Shown piece after piece: positions 7,270-18,384 of a DNA stretch of 24,286 bases. The DNA is from a virus: positions 1 through 24,286 of IMG/VR virus record IMGVR_UViG_3300020171_000131. One strand, written 5' to 3'. The notes under the pieces are model-generated. The model was not told the DNA's origin, searched no databases, and saw only the letters and a list, made by a program, of their open reading frames with translations. The translations under genes and the position numbers were made by a program. Position 1 is the first letter of the stretch; the number at the start of each line of letters is the position of its first letter.

Positions 7270-7776
7270 ATGAAAATATCGAAACTTAAAAAGTTCAAGG
7301 GAAACCCAAGGCGCATGACTGAAAAACAATTCAGCCTGCTGAAGGAACATATTGAAAAACTCGGCGATCTTTCAGGAGTAATCTACTGTGTCAACAACAA
7401 GGCTTACGTCGGCGGCAATCAGCGCAGCGAAATATTTGACGGCTGCGAGATTGTGATTACTGAAAGATTCGATGAACCGACGGCATTGAAAACACTGGCG
7501 CACGGGTATATTGTTTATCAGGGTGAAAAGTACACTTACAGGGAAGTATCATTCACCGAGGAAGAGTTTAAGCAGGCTTGCATTGTTGCGAATAATGACG
7601 GTGGTACGTTTGACTGGGATATCCTGGCTAATCAGTGGGATGAACTTAAACTGGTTGAATGGGGTATGGATGTGCCGGATATGTTTGAAAAAATTCCAGA
7701 TGATAATGAAAATATTGATGAAAAAGGAATGGAAAATACTCAAAATGAATGTCCAAAATGTGGATTCAAATGGTAA
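7270..7776 (+). CDS. ParB/Srx-fold protein, partner of a cytosine methyltransferase
   Basis: The 168-aa protein carries the ParB N-terminal-like (ParB/sulfiredoxin) pattern: a GNPRR box at residues 11-15 and GGNQR at 48-52. A C-terminal block DWDILANQWDELKLVEWG (115-132) is typical of phage ParB-like proteins associated with DNA methylases. The end is CPKCGFKW (161-168), half a zinc ribbon. Members of this fold can have nuclease, NTPase or protein-interaction roles. It is not a plasmid partition protein: there is no HTH domain and no ParA. The start follows AAGGAA and is coupled to the 10-codon leader. Its last 32 nt overlap the methyltransferase gene. A paralogue lies at 11883-12401. Confidence 0.8.
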   Translation: MKISKLKKFKGNPRRMTEKQFSLLKEHIEKLGDLSGVIYCVNNKAYVGGNQRSEIFDGCEIVITERFDEPTALKTLAHGYIVYQGEKYTYREVSFTEEEFKQACIVANNDGGTFDWDILANQWDELKLVEWGMDVPDMFEKIPDDNENIDEKGMENTQNECPKCGFKW

Positions 7777-10112: not shown

Positions 10113-10141
10113 TTTACATAATTCTCTCTGTGTGGTATAAT
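10113..10141 (+). promoter_or_regulatory. Strong extended -10 promoter P2
   Basis: TTTACA (10113-10118), a 17-nt spacer and consensus TATAAT (10136-10141), preceded by TGG as an extended -10. The predicted start (about 10147-10149) falls at the first helix of the leader RNA, so the transcript would begin with that structure. Confidence 0.85.
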
Positions 10142-10144
10142 GGA

Positions 10145-10226
10145 ATTGCGAGGTATTCGGGTCGCTCCCGAAGCAGGTTGGGTGCCGTAATCACTTGGCC
10201 GCCTCGCAATCACCTATTACGGAGGG
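10145..10226 (+). promoter_or_regulatory. Three-way-junction leader RNA with loop able to mask the ribosome binding site
   Basis: The leader of the replication gene folds into three helices. P1 is ATTGCGAGG (10145-10153) with CCTCGCAAT (10202-10210), nine perfect pairs. P2 is TTCGGG/CCCGAA (10156-10161, 10167-10172) with a TCGCT loop. P3 is GGTTGGGTG (10176-10184) with CACTTGGCC (10192-10200), including four wobbles and a 7-nt loop CCGTAAT (10185-10191). That loop is the exact complement of ATTACGG at 10216-10222, which overlaps the GGAGGG site (10221-10226) for the ATG at 10232. A loop-to-ribosome-site pseudoknot would block translation. No named riboswitch class matches by eye. Confidence 0.7.
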
Positions 10227-10231
10227 AAATT

Positions 10232-10966
10232 ATGTCAAATATCGATTCAAAAAAGTTCATTCAGAAAAACCCGATTTTCAAAAGGGGCTACGGTATTGTA
10301 GCAAAAGAAGTTATGGAAGATGATAGACTGACTATCGAAGCAAAGGCAATATATTGCTATTTATGTTCTTATGCCGGAACAAAATTTATATGTTTCCCAA
10401 GCATAAAAATGATTCAAGACAAGCTGAAAATATCAGAAAAAAGATTCTATAGACATATCGATTTGTTAAAGGAATACGGGTATATTACGATTGACAGAGA
10501 AAGCCGAAAAGGCAAGTTCCAAAAGAACTATTACACAATAATAACTGCTCCAGTCCGTCAAAACGCAGTACTGCAAAATGAAGGCTTGCAAAATGCAGGA
10601 CTGCAAAACGGTGGAACTAATATTAACAGTCTCAAAAGTAACAACCTTAATAATAACACTCTTGAAAGTAACATGAATAAAGAGTCATACATCAGTCTCG
10701 AAGATTCGACTGACGACTATGTTATTGAATATCTGAATCAATATAAAAGAAAATACAGGAAAGAACATCATTGGGTCACTATAGAGCAATTTGACAGAAT
10801 AGAATCTGCTTTATCGGATCTGAGGGGAAACGGCGATGTAGATATTGAATGTTATGAAGAGGGGGTTGCAGAATATCTTGATAATATACCAGACACAAAT
10901 AACGGATCAATGCTTTGCTTCATAACTGTGTTTGGCAGGATATATGAATATAATAATGCTTATTGA
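10232..10966 (+). CDS. Phage/plasmid replication initiator (HTH N-terminal domain)
   Basis: The 244-aa protein has the N-terminal domain common to initiators of low-GC Gram-positive phages and plasmids: FKRGYGIVAKEVMEDDRLTI, then EAKAIYCYLCSYAG, then a winged-helix part (FPSIKMIQDKLKISEKRFYRHIDLLKEYGYI). A flexible middle encoded by 15-bp DNA repeats reads LQN-x-GLQN-x-G. The C-terminal half (about 160-244) is a separate helical domain that could recruit helicase. The start at 10232 follows GGAGGG; the frame is open further upstream through the leader RNA, but no start site supports that. Translation is probably controlled by the leader. Such proteins bind an origin, which is often inside the gene. 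Confidence 0.85.
   Translation: MSNIDSKKFIQKNPIFKRGYGIVAKEVMEDDRLTIEAKAIYCYLCSYAGTKFICFPSIKMIQDKLKISEKRFYRHIDLLKEYGYITIDRESRKGKFQKNYYTIITAPVRQNAVLQNEGLQNAGLQNGGTNINSLKSNNLNNNTLESNMNKESYISLEDSTDDYVIEYLNQYKRKYRKEHHWVTIEQFDRIESALSDLRGNGDVDIECYEEGVAEYLDNIPDTNNGSMLCFITVFGRIYEYNNAY
10556..10615 (+). repeat. Four tandem 15-bp repeats inside the initiator gene (candidate origin)
   Basis: Units at 10556, 10571, 10586 and 10601 share a core (C/T)TGCAAAA(T/C)G followed by A/C-AGG-like bases; the first is divergent (CGTCAAAACGCAGTA). They encode LQN-x-G. An AT-rich stretch follows (about 10616-10680). Iterons within an initiator gene beside AT-rich DNA are the layout of lambda O and of several Gram-positive phage origins. 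Confidence 0.6.
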
Positions 10967-11882: not shown

Positions 11883-12401
11883 ATGGTAAAGAAATTGTCG
11901 AAGTTGCCGGAAATCAGGAATAAAATGGAAATGATTGATATCAAATCAATCAAACTTAATCCGGATAATCCAAGACTTATCAGGGACGATAAATATAAAA
12001 AACTTGTTCAGTCAATTAAAGACTTTCCACAGATGTTAGAAATAAGGCCGATAGTCGTTAATTCAGACATGATAATCCTGGGCGGCAATATGAGGCTTAA
12101 GGCTTGCCAGGAAGCTGGATTAAAGCAGATACTGATTATTAAAGCCGATGATCTTACGGAAGAACAGCAGAAAGAATTTATAATCAAAGACAATGTTGCC
12201 TTTGGAGAATGGGACTGGGATATCCTGGCCAATCAATGGGATGAACTTAAATTAGTTGAATGGGGACTGGATATTGAGAATAATAATTTTGATCCTGGAA
12301 ATGAATTTGAGCAAGGACAATTGGATGAATTAGAACCTAAAATAATAATCTGCCCACATTGTAATAAAGAAATAAATTTAAGAGATATGAATGATGTCTG
12401 A
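11883..12401 (+). CDS. ParB/Srx-fold protein, partner of Mom
   Basis: The 172-aa protein is a second ParB N-terminal-like protein: NPDNPR at residues 26-31, GGNMRLKAC at 67-75, IKDNVAFGEW then DWDILANQWDELKLVEWG (111-128), and a C-terminal CPHC (157-160). It shares the DWDILANQWDELKLVEWG block and the cysteine half-ribbon with the protein at 7270-7776, but elsewhere the two differ. The start is uncertain: 11883 gives the longest form without a ribosome site, while the in-frame ATG at 11925 has AGGAA 4 nt upstream and may be the true one. The last 11 nt overlap the Mom gene. It may guide or license modification, as inferred from pairing alone. Confidence 0.8.
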   Translation: MVKKLSKLPEIRNKMEMIDIKSIKLNPDNPRLIRDDKYKKLVQSIKDFPQMLEIRPIVVNSDMIILGGNMRLKACQEAGLKQILIIKADDLTEEQQKEFIIKDNVAFGEWDWDILANQWDELKLVEWGLDIENNNFDPGNEFEQGQLDELEPKIIICPHCNKEINLRDMNDV

Positions 12402-13062
12402 AAGACCAATATTAAAACTTGATTGGTGTACTCATAAAGCTGCTAAATATGCTTGCGAAAATTGGCATTATAGTGAATCTATTCCGGTTGGAAAACTTGT
12501 AAAAATCGGGGTTTGGGAAGACGATAAATTTATAGGAGTAGTTATATTTGGAAGGGGAGCAAATAGAAGTCTGTTGTCACCTTATAGATTAAAACAAGAT
12601 GAGGGTTGTGAATTGGTAAGAATAGCATTAAAAGAACATAGGAATGAAGTAACTAAAATTGTAAAGATAGCAATTGATTTATTGAAAAAATTATGCAATA
12701 AATTATTGTTGATTATTTCATTTGCAGATGATGGACAGGGACACATCGGGAGCATTTATCAAGGCGGAAATTGGATTTATACAGGATATATTAAACAAAA
12801 AAGCAAGGCAATATATAAAGGGAAAATCGCACATAGAAGAACTTTTGATGCAGCGGGAATAAAAGGTTATGAATCAATGGATGCTCATAAAAAATATAGA
12901 TATTTAATGCCATTAACGAAAGAAATGAGAGATAAAGTTATACATCTTAAAAAAGATTATCCTAAGCGTCCGAAACAAGCGATGGATACGACCAGTATCA
13001 CAGCGGCGGGGCAGTACCGACCCGGACGCTCCATAAATCAAATGGAAACGATAAATGCCTAA
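12391..13062 (+). CDS. mom: Mom-family adenine modification enzyme
   Basis: The 223-aa protein matches the Mom family of phage Mu type, GNAT-fold enzymes that convert adenine in DNA to an N6-modified (acetamido/carbamoylmethyl-type) base and so block many restriction enzymes. Blocks in order are NWHYSESIPVGKLVKIGVWE (24-43), FIGVVIFGRGAN (47-58), CELVRIAL (73-80) and SFADDGQGHIGSIYQGGNWIYTG (110-132). A basic tail KDYPKRPKQA follows. The start is MM at 12391/12394, inside the end of the ParB-like gene. The regulated promoter P3 is consistent with the need to restrain Mom, which is toxic in Mu. Host recognition and exact chemistry are inferred from family membership. Confidence 0.9.
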   Translation: MMSERPILKLDWCTHKAAKYACENWHYSESIPVGKLVKIGVWEDDKFIGVVIFGRGANRSLLSPYRLKQDEGCELVRIALKEHRNEVTKIVKIAIDLLKKLCNKLLLIISFADDGQGHIGSIYQGGNWIYTGYIKQKSKAIYKGKIAHRRTFDAAGIKGYESMDAHKKYRYLMPLTKEMRDKVIHLKKDYPKRPKQAMDTTSITAAGQYRPGRSINQMETINA

Positions 13063-13477
13063 ATCCAACAAACCTAAAACTGATAAACAATCGAAAACCA
13101 AGCCGATAAAGCGGTCACCTAAATTTACGAAAATAGACATATTAAAAAGGGCTTTGATAGAGGCGTTAGAAAAACATCTCGGAATTGTTACATCTGCCTG
13201 TAAAACCGCAGGATGCTGCCGAGAAACATTTTACATATATTACAGAGAAGATCCAGAATTTAAAAAAAGAGTTGATTCTATCGGCGAAATGGCTCTTGAC
13301 TTTGCAGAATCGCACTTACATAAACAGATTCAGGACGATAACCCCACATCAACGATATTCTACTTGAAATGCAAAGGTAAGCATCGGGGCTATTATGAAA
13401 AGCAGGAAATTGAAATCACTGATCGCAAAATCGAAATAAACGTCATAAAACCGGATGACCTGAAAGATGATAAATAA
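13055..13477 (+). CDS. terS: Terminase small subunit
   Basis: The 140-aa protein has a basic N-terminus (KPKTDKQSKTKPIKRS) and a helix-turn-helix (IVTSACKTAGCCRETFYIYYREDPEFKKRV, about 44-73). The C-terminal stretch LHKQIQDDNPTSTIFYLKCKGKHRGYYEKQEI is characteristic of phBC6A51-type small terminases. Small terminase recognises the packaging site and regulates the large subunit. It overlaps the Mom gene by 8 nt and the large-subunit gene by 11 nt, the canonical gene order for packaging. The cut-site type (cos or pac) cannot be told from this. Confidence 0.88.
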   Translation: MPKSNKPKTDKQSKTKPIKRSPKFTKIDILKRALIEALEKHLGIVTSACKTAGCCRETFYIYYREDPEFKKRVDSIGEMALDFAESHLHKQIQDDNPTSTIFYLKCKGKHRGYYEKQEIEITDRKIEINVIKPDDLKDDK

Positions 13478-14762
13478 ATGGATATGGGCTATAATCATGG
13501 CAGTAACCTTTAATCTGACGGTTGATCTGTCAAACCTGCGTTCTATAACTAACGATAGGTATTATCAGTTGTACAAATGCAAATCATTATATATGCTGCT
13601 ATACGGCGGAGCAAGTTCCGGGAAGTCTGTATTTATAGCGGATAAATTCACGTTCAGGATATTGACAGAACAGCATCAGAAGTTCTTATACCTCAGAAAG
13701 ATAGGCGCATCATGCCGCGATTCTGTGTTCAGAGAGGCTATAAAGTCAGCAGAGAAATTCGGACTTGTAAAAAACAAAGACTTTTTTGTAAATGAAACCC
13801 GGCTTGAAATCAGTTTCCCGACATTTGATTCAACGATATATTGCCGCGGCTTGGATGATCCAGAAAAGATAAAATCAATCGAAGGCATTACAAGCATGTG
13901 GCTTGAAGAAGTTACAGAGTTCTTGCGGGACGATAAAGAAATATTATCGCTCAGGATGCGGGGTATTAAAGACACATACGAACAAACAATATATTCCTGC
14001 AATCCGATAAACATCAGCCATTACGTTAAAACTGACATGGTAGATCAGCATCCACAACCCGATCCTGATTTTATGATAATGCATTCGACATATAAAGATA
14101 ACAGATTCCTGACAGCAAGCGATATCAAAAAGATAGAATCAAAGACAGGCTATCATTATGAAGTTTATACCCTCGGCAAATGGGGCGTTATAGGCAAACC
14201 GGTATATCCTGACTACAGCGTTGAGAATATCTGCCAAGACTCATTTCAGTACGATAATTGCAGTTTTGGCACAGACTTTGGATTCACTCATGCAAATGTA
14301 AAACTTCTTACAGCACGGGACGAAAAAGGCGATCAGTTCATCTTGAAAGAAGTATCAGGCGAAGGATGGACGAATCAGGAGTTTATAGAACGAAGTCAGG
14401 AAACATTCAGCCAAGGCGAAATAGATACGATCCCGGATTATTGCGATTCACAGGCACCTGATAAAATAGTTGAGTTCAGACGGGCGGGATTCAGATCAGT
14501 CGGAGTTGAAAAATACGCCGGCTCGGTAGTATCCGGGATAGATTATCTGAAAGCCCGGCACACTTATATTCATCCTTCCTGTATCAGAACGATATCTGAA
14601 ATACAGCAATACCAGCATGCTAAGAACAAACACGGAATATACTCCGAAAAGCCGGTTGAAGTATATGACGATGCTATGGCCGCAAATCGGTACTCGATAG
14701 ATAAGCTGAAGAAAAAACGCAGAGATGGAGAAAGGAAGCTATATGCCGTTACAAATTCCTAA
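13467..14762 (+). CDS. terL: Terminase large subunit (PBSX/Terminase_3 type)
   Basis: The ATPase domain has Walker A GGASSGKS (47-54 from the 13467 start) and Walker B MWLEEVTEF (144-152). The C-terminal RNase H-like nuclease has GTDFGF (268-273), YCDSQAPDKI (325-334) and DDAMAANRYS (401-410), supplying the acidic metal ligands. It pumps DNA into the prohead and cuts concatemers. Length (about 421-431 aa) is normal. The start at 13467 adds a hydrophobic MINKWIWAII; the in-frame ATG at 13497 (MAVTFNLTVD) is likely the biological start. Neither has a strong ribosome site, so coupling to the small subunit is expected. Confidence 0.95.
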   Translation: MINKWIWAIIMAVTFNLTVDLSNLRSITNDRYYQLYKCKSLYMLLYGGASSGKSVFIADKFTFRILTEQHQKFLYLRKIGASCRDSVFREAIKSAEKFGLVKNKDFFVNETRLEISFPTFDSTIYCRGLDDPEKIKSIEGITSMWLEEVTEFLRDDKEILSLRMRGIKDTYEQTIYSCNPINISHYVKTDMVDQHPQPDPDFMIMHSTYKDNRFLTASDIKKIESKTGYHYEVYTLGKWGVIGKPVYPDYSVENICQDSFQYDNCSFGTDFGFTHANVKLLTARDEKGDQFILKEVSGEGWTNQEFIERSQETFSQGEIDTIPDYCDSQAPDKIVEFRRAGFRSVGVEKYAGSVVSGIDYLKARHTYIHPSCIRTISEIQQYQHAKNKHGIYSEKPVEVYDDAMAANRYSIDKLKKKRRDGERKLYAVTNS

Positions 14763-17700
14763 GTCAAATATATCATCAATCGAAGAAGCCAGGGCACGTC
14801 TGCTGCAAGAAAAGCAGGCCGGCTTAGAGAACGACTCCGGAGAAATGAAGAAATACAAGCCGAATAAATATACATACGTTCAGGACTATGAGAATCAGCT
14901 ACAAACATCCTGGTATTCGATGGTCAGGAATAAAGACATATATGACTACGACTCATTCTTTTACGCCATATCGAAGCATCCGGCGGTATATGCCGTAGTC
15001 AACAAGATAGTTGAAAATATGTTCAAGGGCGGCTATGAAATAGTGCCACGTAAAGGCATTAAGCATCCTTCCGAGAAACAAAGGGCGATGCTGGAAGCCT
15101 ATCTTGCAAATGTCCATCCCGATGGCTACACTTTCATGGAAATAATGAAAGATGCCTGGACAGACTGCCTGCCGTGCGGAACGAAGTTAGTCCAGATAGA
15201 TGAAAAATATCCCTACCTGTACGGCAATCTTGATTTCGGAACCTTCAGGCCGAACATAAACGAATATGGCCTGTTTAATGAAGGCTGGAAGTGGGAACAG
15301 ATAATCCTTGGCCAGGTAGTAGCACAATTATTTCAGGGTCAATATATCTGGTATCGGCTCCCCGGCAAGCATATTTTGATATATCCAAGATCCCCGCTTG
15401 AGCCGCTTCTTACCGGGATTGAAACAGACTTGTTCGGCAAACTGTTCAACAAAAACAGATTCACAAATTCAAGCTCATTTGGCAATATATTCATACTTCC
15501 GGAAAATTCAGACAGCATGGACGCAAAAACATTGAAAGCATATATTGAACAGAACTATGTTTCGCAGTCCGATTCATTCGGTGAACTAACGACAGATAAT
15601 TCATATAAAAATCTTGTGCTTTACAACGGCGCAAAGATAGATCAATCAATCGTAGACAGATTCAAGGATATAGACTTCATTCAACTTCGCAGCGTAACAA
15701 TAAAAGATGTCTGTATGTGCTTTGATATGCCGCTCAGGGTGATGAGCATAGAGGAATCAGGATTAGGACAGGCCGGTGCAAACGATGCAGCTATGAGTCA
15801 ATTTTACGGTGATCTGATTATTCCACAGCAGACTATGTGGGAAGATCAGACGGATGCTCAGTTGACGTTGGGGCGGCTTGAATGTACAGACTGGCGGATT
15901 CAGCTTATACGGCCAAAATGGATTAACGAGGAAAAGTTTACTAATCTCGCTATAAGCCTGAAGGAAAAAGGCGTACAGACAGCAGATGAAGCTAGATTCA
16001 TGCTAAAAGATTTATATTCACACCTTGGCTACGGCAAGAACAATGGCATTGAACTTCAGGACTGGGAAAATATCGCAGTTTCAGAACTGACACAGGATAA
16101 AGTATTAAATGGTGCGCAGGTACAAAGCGCAATAAATATAGTTACCTTGGTTGCACAAGGCGTTATGCCGAAAGATGCAGCTTTGGGTCAACTGATGGTT
16201 ATGTTCAATTTAACGGAAGAACAAGCCAAAAAAATATTAGGCTCTATAAAAAGCAGCGCGACAACCCAGAAGTCATGCGGTCATAACCACAAAAAACTAA
16301 TCGAAGATAATAACATCCCTGAAAACATCAGGCAGGCAGCAGAGAAGGCGCGTAAGGCTTGGAATTACAGGATGGTTGAATCAGACTTGAACGAAGGTGA
16401 AAATGCGATACAGACTGAATTTGACGCTATATCCGATAAAATGTTCGCAGACGCGAAAAAACAGGCATCATTGGCTTGGAAATCACCGGATAATCAGATT
16501 ATGTTTACTTTCAAGCTGAAATATAAGGCTGATCTGGATTCATTACTCAGGATTGAATCAGCCAAGATATTTGACTCCGGACGCAAAGATGTTGATTCAC
16601 AGATGGGTAAAAGATCATGTCGCAAGGCCGATCTTGATACTCTGAACAAATATAAGCAGTTAGTCAAGAAGGAATCAAAGCAGGCCTCCGAGGATTGGTA
16701 CATCAGACTTGAGAAGGAAATGAATATAATTTACAACTCAGCCATCGCTCAGAAACTATCTGAGAATCAGCTTATTAAAAAGATGTCTGATAGATTCGAT
16801 GTCCTGAGAAATTCTTCACCTGCAATAGTCCGCACAATGACAACAGGATTTTATAACTTGGGCCGGGCCGAAATGATGTATGAAGTAGGTGACTTTGTTG
16901 AGTATGTCCAGTTCAGCGCGATTATGGACGATAGGACGACAGAACGATGCGAACGACTCGATGGAGACATCATGCGAAAAGATTCTGATTTTGAGAAGAT
17001 TATGCCGCCGTTGCATTATAATTGTTTCATAGACGGGCAAACTGCAATCTATACATCAAAGGGATGGGAGCAAATAAAAAATATAGAGTTGGGCGATTTA
17101 ATATTAACTCACAAAGGGAAATTCAAACCAGCAACCTTTATTCATCATAAGAAAAATCCTACAAGCTATGACGGCGATGTCATAAAAATAACGATTAAAA
17201 TGAAGAAAAGAAATGCAAAAGGATTCTGTGAAAACTTTATCACGACAACCCTGGATCATCCTTTTTTAACTCAGCGTGGTTGGGTCAAGGCCTGTGAATT
17301 GAATAAAAATGACAAACTCAATACCTTGGCGTTTAAATGTAAAGAATGTGGTGAAGTAATGCCTTGGAGACCGTGGGGTTATTGTATAGAAAATATGGAA
17401 ATGCCAAAATATTGTTCAGGTGAATGCGCAATGAAAAACAATGTTGCCACAAAATGGTCAGATGAAAGGAAAAAGAAACAATCAAAAATGACAACGCTGC
17501 AATTAAAAAGAGAATATGATTGTGGTATAAGAAGCGGAAGCGAAATAACTAAAAAAGCACATGAAAAAACAAAAGAAATGGCCGCAAAAGGAGAACATCC
17601 ATTTCAAAAAACAGAAGTACGAAAATATGCATTAAAAAAAAGAATGGAAAGTGAAAAATGGAAATTGGCAAATGAAGCAAAAAGAGGAGAAAATAATGTA

Positions 17701-18384
17701 ATGCATCGTCCGGAAGTGGCCAAAAAAAGTGGAGAATCACAAAAAATATATTGGTTAAATAATCCAGAAAAACATTCAAACAGGAAAATGGGTCTTGCGA
17801 TCATGAAAGGACAAATGGGATATATTTCAAAGGGACAACGTTCATTATATGACATTCTGAAAAAAATATTTCCAAATGCAGAATTAGAATATCCTGTTAA
17901 ATTAAATGGAAAACTCTATTATCTGGATATAGCAATTCCGGAACATAAAATAAACTTCGAATTTGATGGTTCATACTGGCACAATAAACCGGGTTGTAAG
18001 GAAAAAGATATAGAAAGAGATTTAAATTTATCTAAAGACGGTTGGAATGTTATCAGATATGTAGATCACGTTCCGGCAAAAGATAGTATTTATGAAGAAG
18101 TGTCAAGAATTATGGCAAATCATAATGATGAATACTGTTTTTCAGAAGTAGATATAGAAAAAATAGAAAGATGGAAATTAAAAAAGGCAAGAAGATTATA
18201 TAATATTTCTGTACAGGATGATGAAAGTTATATCGCAAAGGGATTTGTAGTTCATAACTGTCGCAGTATACTACTTCCAATAACTCAGGAAGACGTAAAA
18301 GAGAACAAAAAACTATCCGAAACTACACCGGATAAAGAAATCAATAAAATATTAAATGACACAGCCGGATTCGATAGGCTGTAA
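14743..18384 (+). CDS. Portal-MuF fusion protein interrupted by an intein
   Basis: The 1213-aa precursor starts at 14743, behind AAAGGAA; the ATG at 14725 lies in the terminase gene. Residues 1 to about 500 are a phage portal, the dodecameric DNA channel (markers: NKIVENMFKGGYEIVP, RFKDIDFIQLR, ESGLGQAGANDA). After a Cys/His linker (KSCGHNHKK) comes a Mu gpF-type head morphogenesis domain ending with DDRTTERCERLDGDIM and PPLHYN/CRSILLPI. The MuF core is cut at Asn760/Cys761 by a 412-residue intein (761-1172). Splicing would give an 801-aa portal-MuF protein. Portal and MuF are usually separate neighbouring genes; fusions occur in some phages. The intein stretch is visibly more A-rich than the flanks, suggesting recent arrival. 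Confidence 0.93.
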   Translation: MPLQIPKSNISSIEEARARLLQEKQAGLENDSGEMKKYKPNKYTYVQDYENQLQTSWYSMVRNKDIYDYDSFFYAISKHPAVYAVVNKIVENMFKGGYEIVPRKGIKHPSEKQRAMLEAYLANVHPDGYTFMEIMKDAWTDCLPCGTKLVQIDEKYPYLYGNLDFGTFRPNINEYGLFNEGWKWEQIILGQVVAQLFQGQYIWYRLPGKHILIYPRSPLEPLLTGIETDLFGKLFNKNRFTNSSSFGNIFILPENSDSMDAKTLKAYIEQNYVSQSDSFGELTTDNSYKNLVLYNGAKIDQSIVDRFKDIDFIQLRSVTIKDVCMCFDMPLRVMSIEESGLGQAGANDAAMSQFYGDLIIPQQTMWEDQTDAQLTLGRLECTDWRIQLIRPKWINEEKFTNLAISLKEKGVQTADEARFMLKDLYSHLGYGKNNGIELQDWENIAVSELTQDKVLNGAQVQSAINIVTLVAQGVMPKDAALGQLMVMFNLTEEQAKKILGSIKSSATTQKSCGHNHKKLIEDNNIPENIRQAAEKARKAWNYRMVESDLNEGENAIQTEFDAISDKMFADAKKQASLAWKSPDNQIMFTFKLKYKADLDSLLRIESAKIFDSGRKDVDSQMGKRSCRKADLDTLNKYKQLVKKESKQASEDWYIRLEKEMNIIYNSAIAQKLSENQLIKKMSDRFDVLRNSSPAIVRTMTTGFYNLGRAEMMYEVGDFVEYVQFSAIMDDRTTERCERLDGDIMRKDSDFEKIMPPLHYNCFIDGQTAIYTSKGWEQIKNIELGDLILTHKGKFKPATFIHHKKNPTSYDGDVIKITIKMKKRNAKGFCENFITTTLDHPFLTQRGWVKACELNKNDKLNTLAFKCKECGEVMPWRPWGYCIENMEMPKYCSGECAMKNNVATKWSDERKKKQSKMTTLQLKREYDCGIRSGSEITKKAHEKTKEMAAKGEHPFQKTEVRKYALKKRMESEKWKLANEAKRGENNVMHRPEVAKKSGESQKIYWLNNPEKHSNRKMGLAIMKGQMGYISKGQRSLYDILKKIFPNAELEYPVKLNGKLYYLDIAIPEHKINFEFDGSYWHNKPGCKEKDIERDLNLSKDGWNVIRYVDHVPAKDSIYEEVSRIMANHNDEYCFSEVDIEKIERWKLKKARRLYNISVQDDESYIAKGFVVHNCRSILLPITQEDVKENKKLSETTPDKEINKILNDTAGFDRL
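17023..18258 (+). other. Intein with Vsr/EDxHD-like homing endonuclease
   Basis: The insert starts with Cys (CFIDGQTAIYTSKGWEQIKN), has a block B (TTLDHPFLTQRGWVKACEL), and ends VVHN followed by an extein Cys. These are Cys1, the conserved TxxH and the His-Asn/Cys splice junction of a class 1 intein. Between the Hint halves lie a treble-clef-like segment (CKECGEVMP, YCSGECAMKNN), basic NUMOD3-like repeats and a nuclease core. The core has KGQRSLYDILKKIFP, LYYLDIAIPEHKINFEFDG, SYWH and DLNLSKDGWNVIRYVD, a pattern of Vsr-like (PD-(D/E)XK-related) homing enzymes rather than LAGLIDADG. All splicing residues appear intact. Confidence 0.92.

Follow-up and report, generated by a model that had tools for sequence, protein, structure and literature searches.

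What does the structured leader in front of a phage replication initiator gene do, and does it belong to anything wider than the phage that carries it? The question arises in the window, the whole 24,286-nucleotide stretch of viral DNA analysed here (IMG/VR record IMGVR_UViG_3300020171_000131), where an earlier note, made from the sequence alone, had described a leader RNA with three helices and a loop, CCGTAAT, perfectly complementary to an ATTACGG that overlaps the Shine-Dalgarno (SD) sequence. All of these parts are present, and the leader is laid out as follows.

10113..10141, + strand: promoter, with the -35 TTTACA at 10113-10118 and an extended -10, TGTGGTATAAT, ending at 10141
10145-10153, + strand: 5' strand of the outer helix P1 (ATTGCGAGG; pair probabilities 0.45-1.0)
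10156..10172, + strand: P2 hairpin TTCGGG-TCGCT-CCCGAA, with arms TTCGGG at 10156-10161 and CCCGAA at 10167-10172
10176..10200, + strand: P3, the SL1 of the class described below; nine-pair stem with four G-U pairs, closing GUG/CAC
10176-10184 and 10192-10200, + strand: arms of P3 (GGTTGGGTG and CACTTGGCC), placed by the fold and by class covariation
10185-10191, + strand: SL1 (P3) loop CCGUAAU (DNA CCGTAAT), exact complement of 10216-10222
10202-10210, + strand: 3' strand of P1 (CCTCGCAAT), pairing with 10145-10153
10213..10225, + strand: SL2, CCU at 10213-10215 with AGG at 10223-10225 in the MFE fold, pair probability about 0.6
10216-10222, + strand: complement AUUACGG (DNA ATTACGG), overlapping the SD and forming the SL2 loop
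10221-10226, + strand: Shine-Dalgarno GGAGGG, its GG within the SL2 loop and its AGG within the SL2 stem
10232..10966, + strand: HTH_36/DnaD-like replication initiator gene, ATG at 10232, 244 aa

The three-way junction as drawn is the MFE fold, with z of -3.2 for 10145-10210 and most pair probabilities in P1-P3 above 0.95; z drops to only -1.7 once the ribosome site is included in the folded leader. P3 does have nine pairs, but four of them are G-U wobbles, which makes the hairpin weaker than had been claimed. SL2 (CCT 10213-10215 with AGG 10223-10225) was absent from the earlier description and makes the complement itself a hairpin loop. The promoter (TTTACA-17-TGTGGTATAAT) is strong and near-consensus, with 11/12 consensus matches and the TG present; because it ends at 10141, the transcript is expected to start about 7 nt past the -10, near 10148 and thus within the 5' strand of P1, rather than at the base of P1 as first proposed. 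The combination of SL1, an exact 7-nt complement, an SD and a start codon also appeared in 6 of 200 dinucleotide-shuffled windows (3%), so the window taken alone makes a weak case and the argument rests on comparative evidence, which is strong.

By such comparison, the core of the window leader (P3 and the SD region) is a member of a recurring phage RNA element. In this class, an SL1 with a loop of about 7 nt is followed by a short linker (5-17 nt) and an SL2 with an exactly complementary loop that carries the SD, and the whole sits directly before a start codon. A scan of viral contigs for this loop together with its complement, with a first pattern that required neither the 5' side of the stem nor a start codon, gave 5 loci at first and then 17. 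In most of these 17, the stem covaried and closed with GTG/CAC pairs, and a start codon came shortly after the SD; the flanks of the complement usually paired to form SL2. A covariance model built from eight scan loci (R1) found members with other loops, such as CCACAAC/GTTGTGG, CCTCCAA/TTGGAGG and CCTAAC/GTTAGG. Overall, we collected 56 distinct elements with 40 different loops, a few of the elements being alternative registers of one site. A -10 box stands right before SL1 in 16 of the 56, compared with 9.7% in shuffles. The window has the defining parts, namely an SL1 (at least 6 pairs, loop of 6-8 nt) with an exact downstream complement overlapping the SD, and a second hairpin that has this complement as its loop and the SD on its 3' side, the latter weak as in locus L002. 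It scores 17.9 bits (E 0.014) with R1 and 11.6 bits (E 0.27) with a second model, R2; with four G-U pairs in SL1 and only 3 pairs in SL2, it is a weak class member. Across 398 genomes of one bacterial phylum, R2 gave hits in 8, with the loop complement kept in only one of these (G013), so the element is rare in that phylum.

Whether the loop and the SD region truly depend on each other was addressed by scans that left the loop free. With only the SL1 stem and CC fixed and five loop positions free, the exact 7-nt complement was found at the SD in 19 of 20 loci; at L110, SL1 is present and the complement absent. When all seven loop positions were free next to a GGGAGTG stem, 15 of 16 loops with CC had an exact complement, as opposed to 0 of 23 other loops, some of these loci being near-duplicates; the CC at the start of the SL1 loop pairs with the GG of the SD. 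A second stem class with free loop positions had exact complements at 16 of 18 places. Among double hairpins chosen blind to complementarity, many of them at loci originally fetched with complement-bearing patterns, 32 had loops complementary at 7/7 positions, compared with 2.6 expected on re-pairing. A generic scanner returned 47 hits versus 5 in an identity control and, over whole contigs, 69 hits versus 18 (identity control) and 10 (shuffled). In an alignment of 28 elements, 97.4% of cells pair, compared with 75% when shuffled and about 50% when slid. Both sides have changed in 7/7 SL1 pairs, 5/7 loop-loop pairs and 3/4 SL2 pairs; the 28 were picked partly for complementarity, so the loop-pair figure is best weighed together with the scans. 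Across the aligned sequences, then, covariation is seen in SL1, in SL2 and in the loop-loop pairing. U-G pairs in SL2 point to an RNA of that strand and not to a DNA palindrome.

The two remaining helices of the window differ in how far they are shared. P2 (TTCGGGTCGCTCCCGAA) matches SL0, a hairpin 5' of SL1 with a GGGTNGCTCCC core in some class members; this core occurs in 7 of the 56 elements, the window included, versus 0.8% in shuffles. P1 encloses both SL0 and SL1 in the window only, and a comparable outer helix (AGTGGGG/CCCCACT) is found in L105. Among the elements compared, the three-way junction is thus peculiar to the window, and the wider class is defined by P3 and the SD pairing only. 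Formation of P1 may compete with loop/SD pairing in the window. A subfamily (L007, L170-L182) has the common order SL0 - GCGCAGAYT - SL1 and, below a bulge, additional outer pairs (GAYTNG/CRRTC) recognised by eye.

Some matches and likenesses were set aside. L012/L018 and L013 match the pattern exactly and are without a proper SL1 stem. L012 (3643-3683, minus strand) and L018 carry a GGGTCGCTCCC hairpin together with GTGCCGTAATCAC and CCTATTACGG; they lack an ORF and continue into a strong terminator-like repeat. They may represent a degenerate copy that has P2 and the loop in common with the window. A likeness of GUGCC..GUAAU..ACGGAGG to the 16S rRNA 530 loop was dropped, as the loop sequence in the class is free.

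Which genes follow the element? Nearly all are free-standing homing endonucleases of HNH/NUMOD, GIY-YIG and endonuclease VII types, although several small HNH-like proteins among them lacked a Pfam match and were assigned by eye. Such a gene is usual downstream of the element without being part of its definition, and the window, with its HTH_36/DnaD-like initiator, is one of the cases without it, together with L105 (DUF5055), L104 (an unknown 189-aa gene) and L103. In L103, two intact leaders with the same loop, CCGATAA (at 7766 and 9746), are followed by tiny ORFs only, and the second lies directly before a terminase-like ORF; they are probably remnants of lost endonuclease genes. At L153, the element is followed by a 52-aa GIY-YIG-like fragment. 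One phage can have four to seven elements, and their loops nearly always differ within a phage. Single phage contigs, G002 (L149, L150) and G001 (L138-L142), have six to seven leaders, each with its own loop code. At L112, a 7 kb stretch has thirteen tRNA genes interleaved with element-bearing endonuclease genes.

The element matched no described RNA. The window gave no Rfam match at the gathering score or at E up to 10, in line with the earlier statement that no named class fits, and for six related loci only tRNAs matched. No description of the element was found in the searched literature, a scope that left most subscription papers outside. The element was absent from nine named-phage leaders (eight precede endonuclease genes and the ninth is a Phabio blastn hit), and blastn of two leaders against a phage collection gave no example. 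Searches of viral contigs for initiator and terminase relatives found none, the phage collection contained no near relative of the window, and no sister phage of the window was found.

The initiator offers a second line of comparison. About 14 of its relatives, in Clostridia genomes, phages and plasmids, were examined, and the element was absent from all of them, so initiator control did not ancestrally include it; either the window initiator acquired it, or the capture ran in the other direction. On the covariance check that had been suggested for the leader, the pairing of loop and ribosome site covaries across related elements; the leaders of the initiator relatives examined lack the element.

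We propose that the leader is probably a cis-acting translational lock, in which loop-SD pairing hides the ribosome site and lowers output. The hairpins, their covarying complementarity and their recurrence before start codons are observed; from these we infer that the pairing takes place in cis and reduces translation. The 5'-proximal SL1 (P3) would offer its 7-nt loop to the loop of the weak SL2, between whose loop (GG) and stem (AGG) the SD is split. SL1-loop pairing and SL2 together would conceal the ribosome site and keep protein output low. The lock would act on the replication initiator in the window and, in most other phages, on selfish homing endonuclease genes with a private loop code each. 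Linkers of 5-17 nt probably do not allow SL1 and SL2 to form together with a complete 7-bp loop-loop helix in a coaxial cis arrangement, and we infer that an H-type pseudoknot opening SL2 is likelier than a full kiss. A precedent for such a lock lies in homing endonuclease genes of T4 and Aeh1, whose ribosome sites are sequestered in RNA hairpins (I-TevI, I-TevII, I-TevIII, segB, mobE), with reduced translation shown for mobE (PMC2988022, PMC3014915). Those are single long hairpins on upstream read-through transcripts, avoided by a late promoter. In the class, by contrast, there are two hairpins whose loops complement each other, and many copies have a promoter directly before SL1, which would place the lock on the gene's own transcript; in the window, too, the promoter lies upstream of the structure, not inside a single hairpin.

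The same complementarity could act in trans, with SL1 or a fragment of it kissing SL2 of another transcript in a gene-specific, antisense-like control of copy or dose. Antisense kissing pairs such as ColE1 RNAI/RNAII typically have 7-nt loops that are complementary throughout; short linkers speak against a complete kiss in cis, and the loops of one phage nearly always differ. As in antisense kissing control (ColE1 RNAI/RNAII; repB of pMV158, PMC4485353), the loops are complementary and their pairing codes sequence-specific, and in the window the gene concerned is likewise a replication gene. However, a single transcript carries the two loops, we identified no antisense promoter, and local concentration favours cis pairing where SL1 and SL2 share an RNA with no terminator between them; loop differences inside one genome could also be drift or separate origin. 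Overall, we regard action in trans as unlikely. It is unlikely, too, that the leader is left over from a lost homing endonuclease, contributing promoter and SD only, or that its 5' structure mainly protects the mRNA. Decayed copies do exist (L103 with its tiny ORFs, L153 with its fragment), and erosion has left G-U pairs in the SL1 of the window, yet the window's loop/SD complementarity, SL2 and spacing are all intact, and P1 and P2 are gains of structure rather than losses.

The earlier note had read the leader as a translational switch, working either as a riboswitch or through autoregulation by the initiator. An RNA element of translational control is what the class covariation supports; the two specific versions fared worse. 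A ligand riboswitch or thermosensor in which a signal opens the pairing would share its layout with H-type pseudoknot translational riboswitches such as SAM/SAH (PMC7367207), in which a hairpin loop likewise pairs with downstream sequence at the SD. Unlike these, the class matches nothing in Rfam even at E 10, and its loop varies freely as long as it stays complementary: apart from CC and the closing pairs of the stem, the 40 loops leave no conserved ligand pocket, and none is seen in 28-32 elements. The downstream genes have no common metabolic theme, and unrelated endonuclease genes carry the same element, which leaves this reading very improbable. Binding of the initiator protein to its own leader is more improbable still: the leader adjoins the initiator gene, and the leaders of phage genes 32 and 43 are autoregulated (PMC3014915), but the element also precedes unrelated endonucleases and is not kept with the initiator family, being missing from about 14 relatives. 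The T4 gene 32 pseudoknot is likewise a structured phage leader governing translation of a DNA replication gene (PMC3014915); it lies 67 nt upstream, nucleates gp32 binding and is unpaired with the SD.

Other features of the window were observed alongside the leader. Inside the initiator gene, at 10559-10673, three 20-nt direct repeats with 15-nt spacing (CAAAACGCAGTACTGCAAAA) are followed by AT-rich repeats; by analogy with lambda O, this looks like an iteron-type origin within the initiator gene. Between initiator and terminase, positions 11883-13477 encode a ParB-like/nuclease-type protein, then a Mom-like protein (assigned by eye) and a small DNA-binding-like protein. A portal/head-morphogenesis ORF of 1219 aa (14725-18384) has one stretch that matches homing endonuclease families; it looks like an intein insertion that includes a nuclease domain.

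That phage ribosome sites can be sequestered by RNA is known, from a few T4-like endonuclease genes with simple hairpins; the two-hairpin, loop-code design is absent from Rfam and from the searched literature. Here it appears as a compact, strongly covarying design across many unrelated endonuclease families and phages. We tentatively suggest that these leaders may form a widespread undescribed class, in which private 7-nt loop pairs would place several endonucleases of one phage under separate, non-cross-reacting control and, in the window, would do so for a replication initiator. The loop code would be programmable and would supply naturally occurring orthogonal translational locks; it raises the testable question of how selfish genes stay quiet and whether the loops of one genome are orthogonal. 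The window provides a case of such a proposed lock on a phage replication initiator; if this is true, a control device of mobile elements would set the onset of replication in the window phage.
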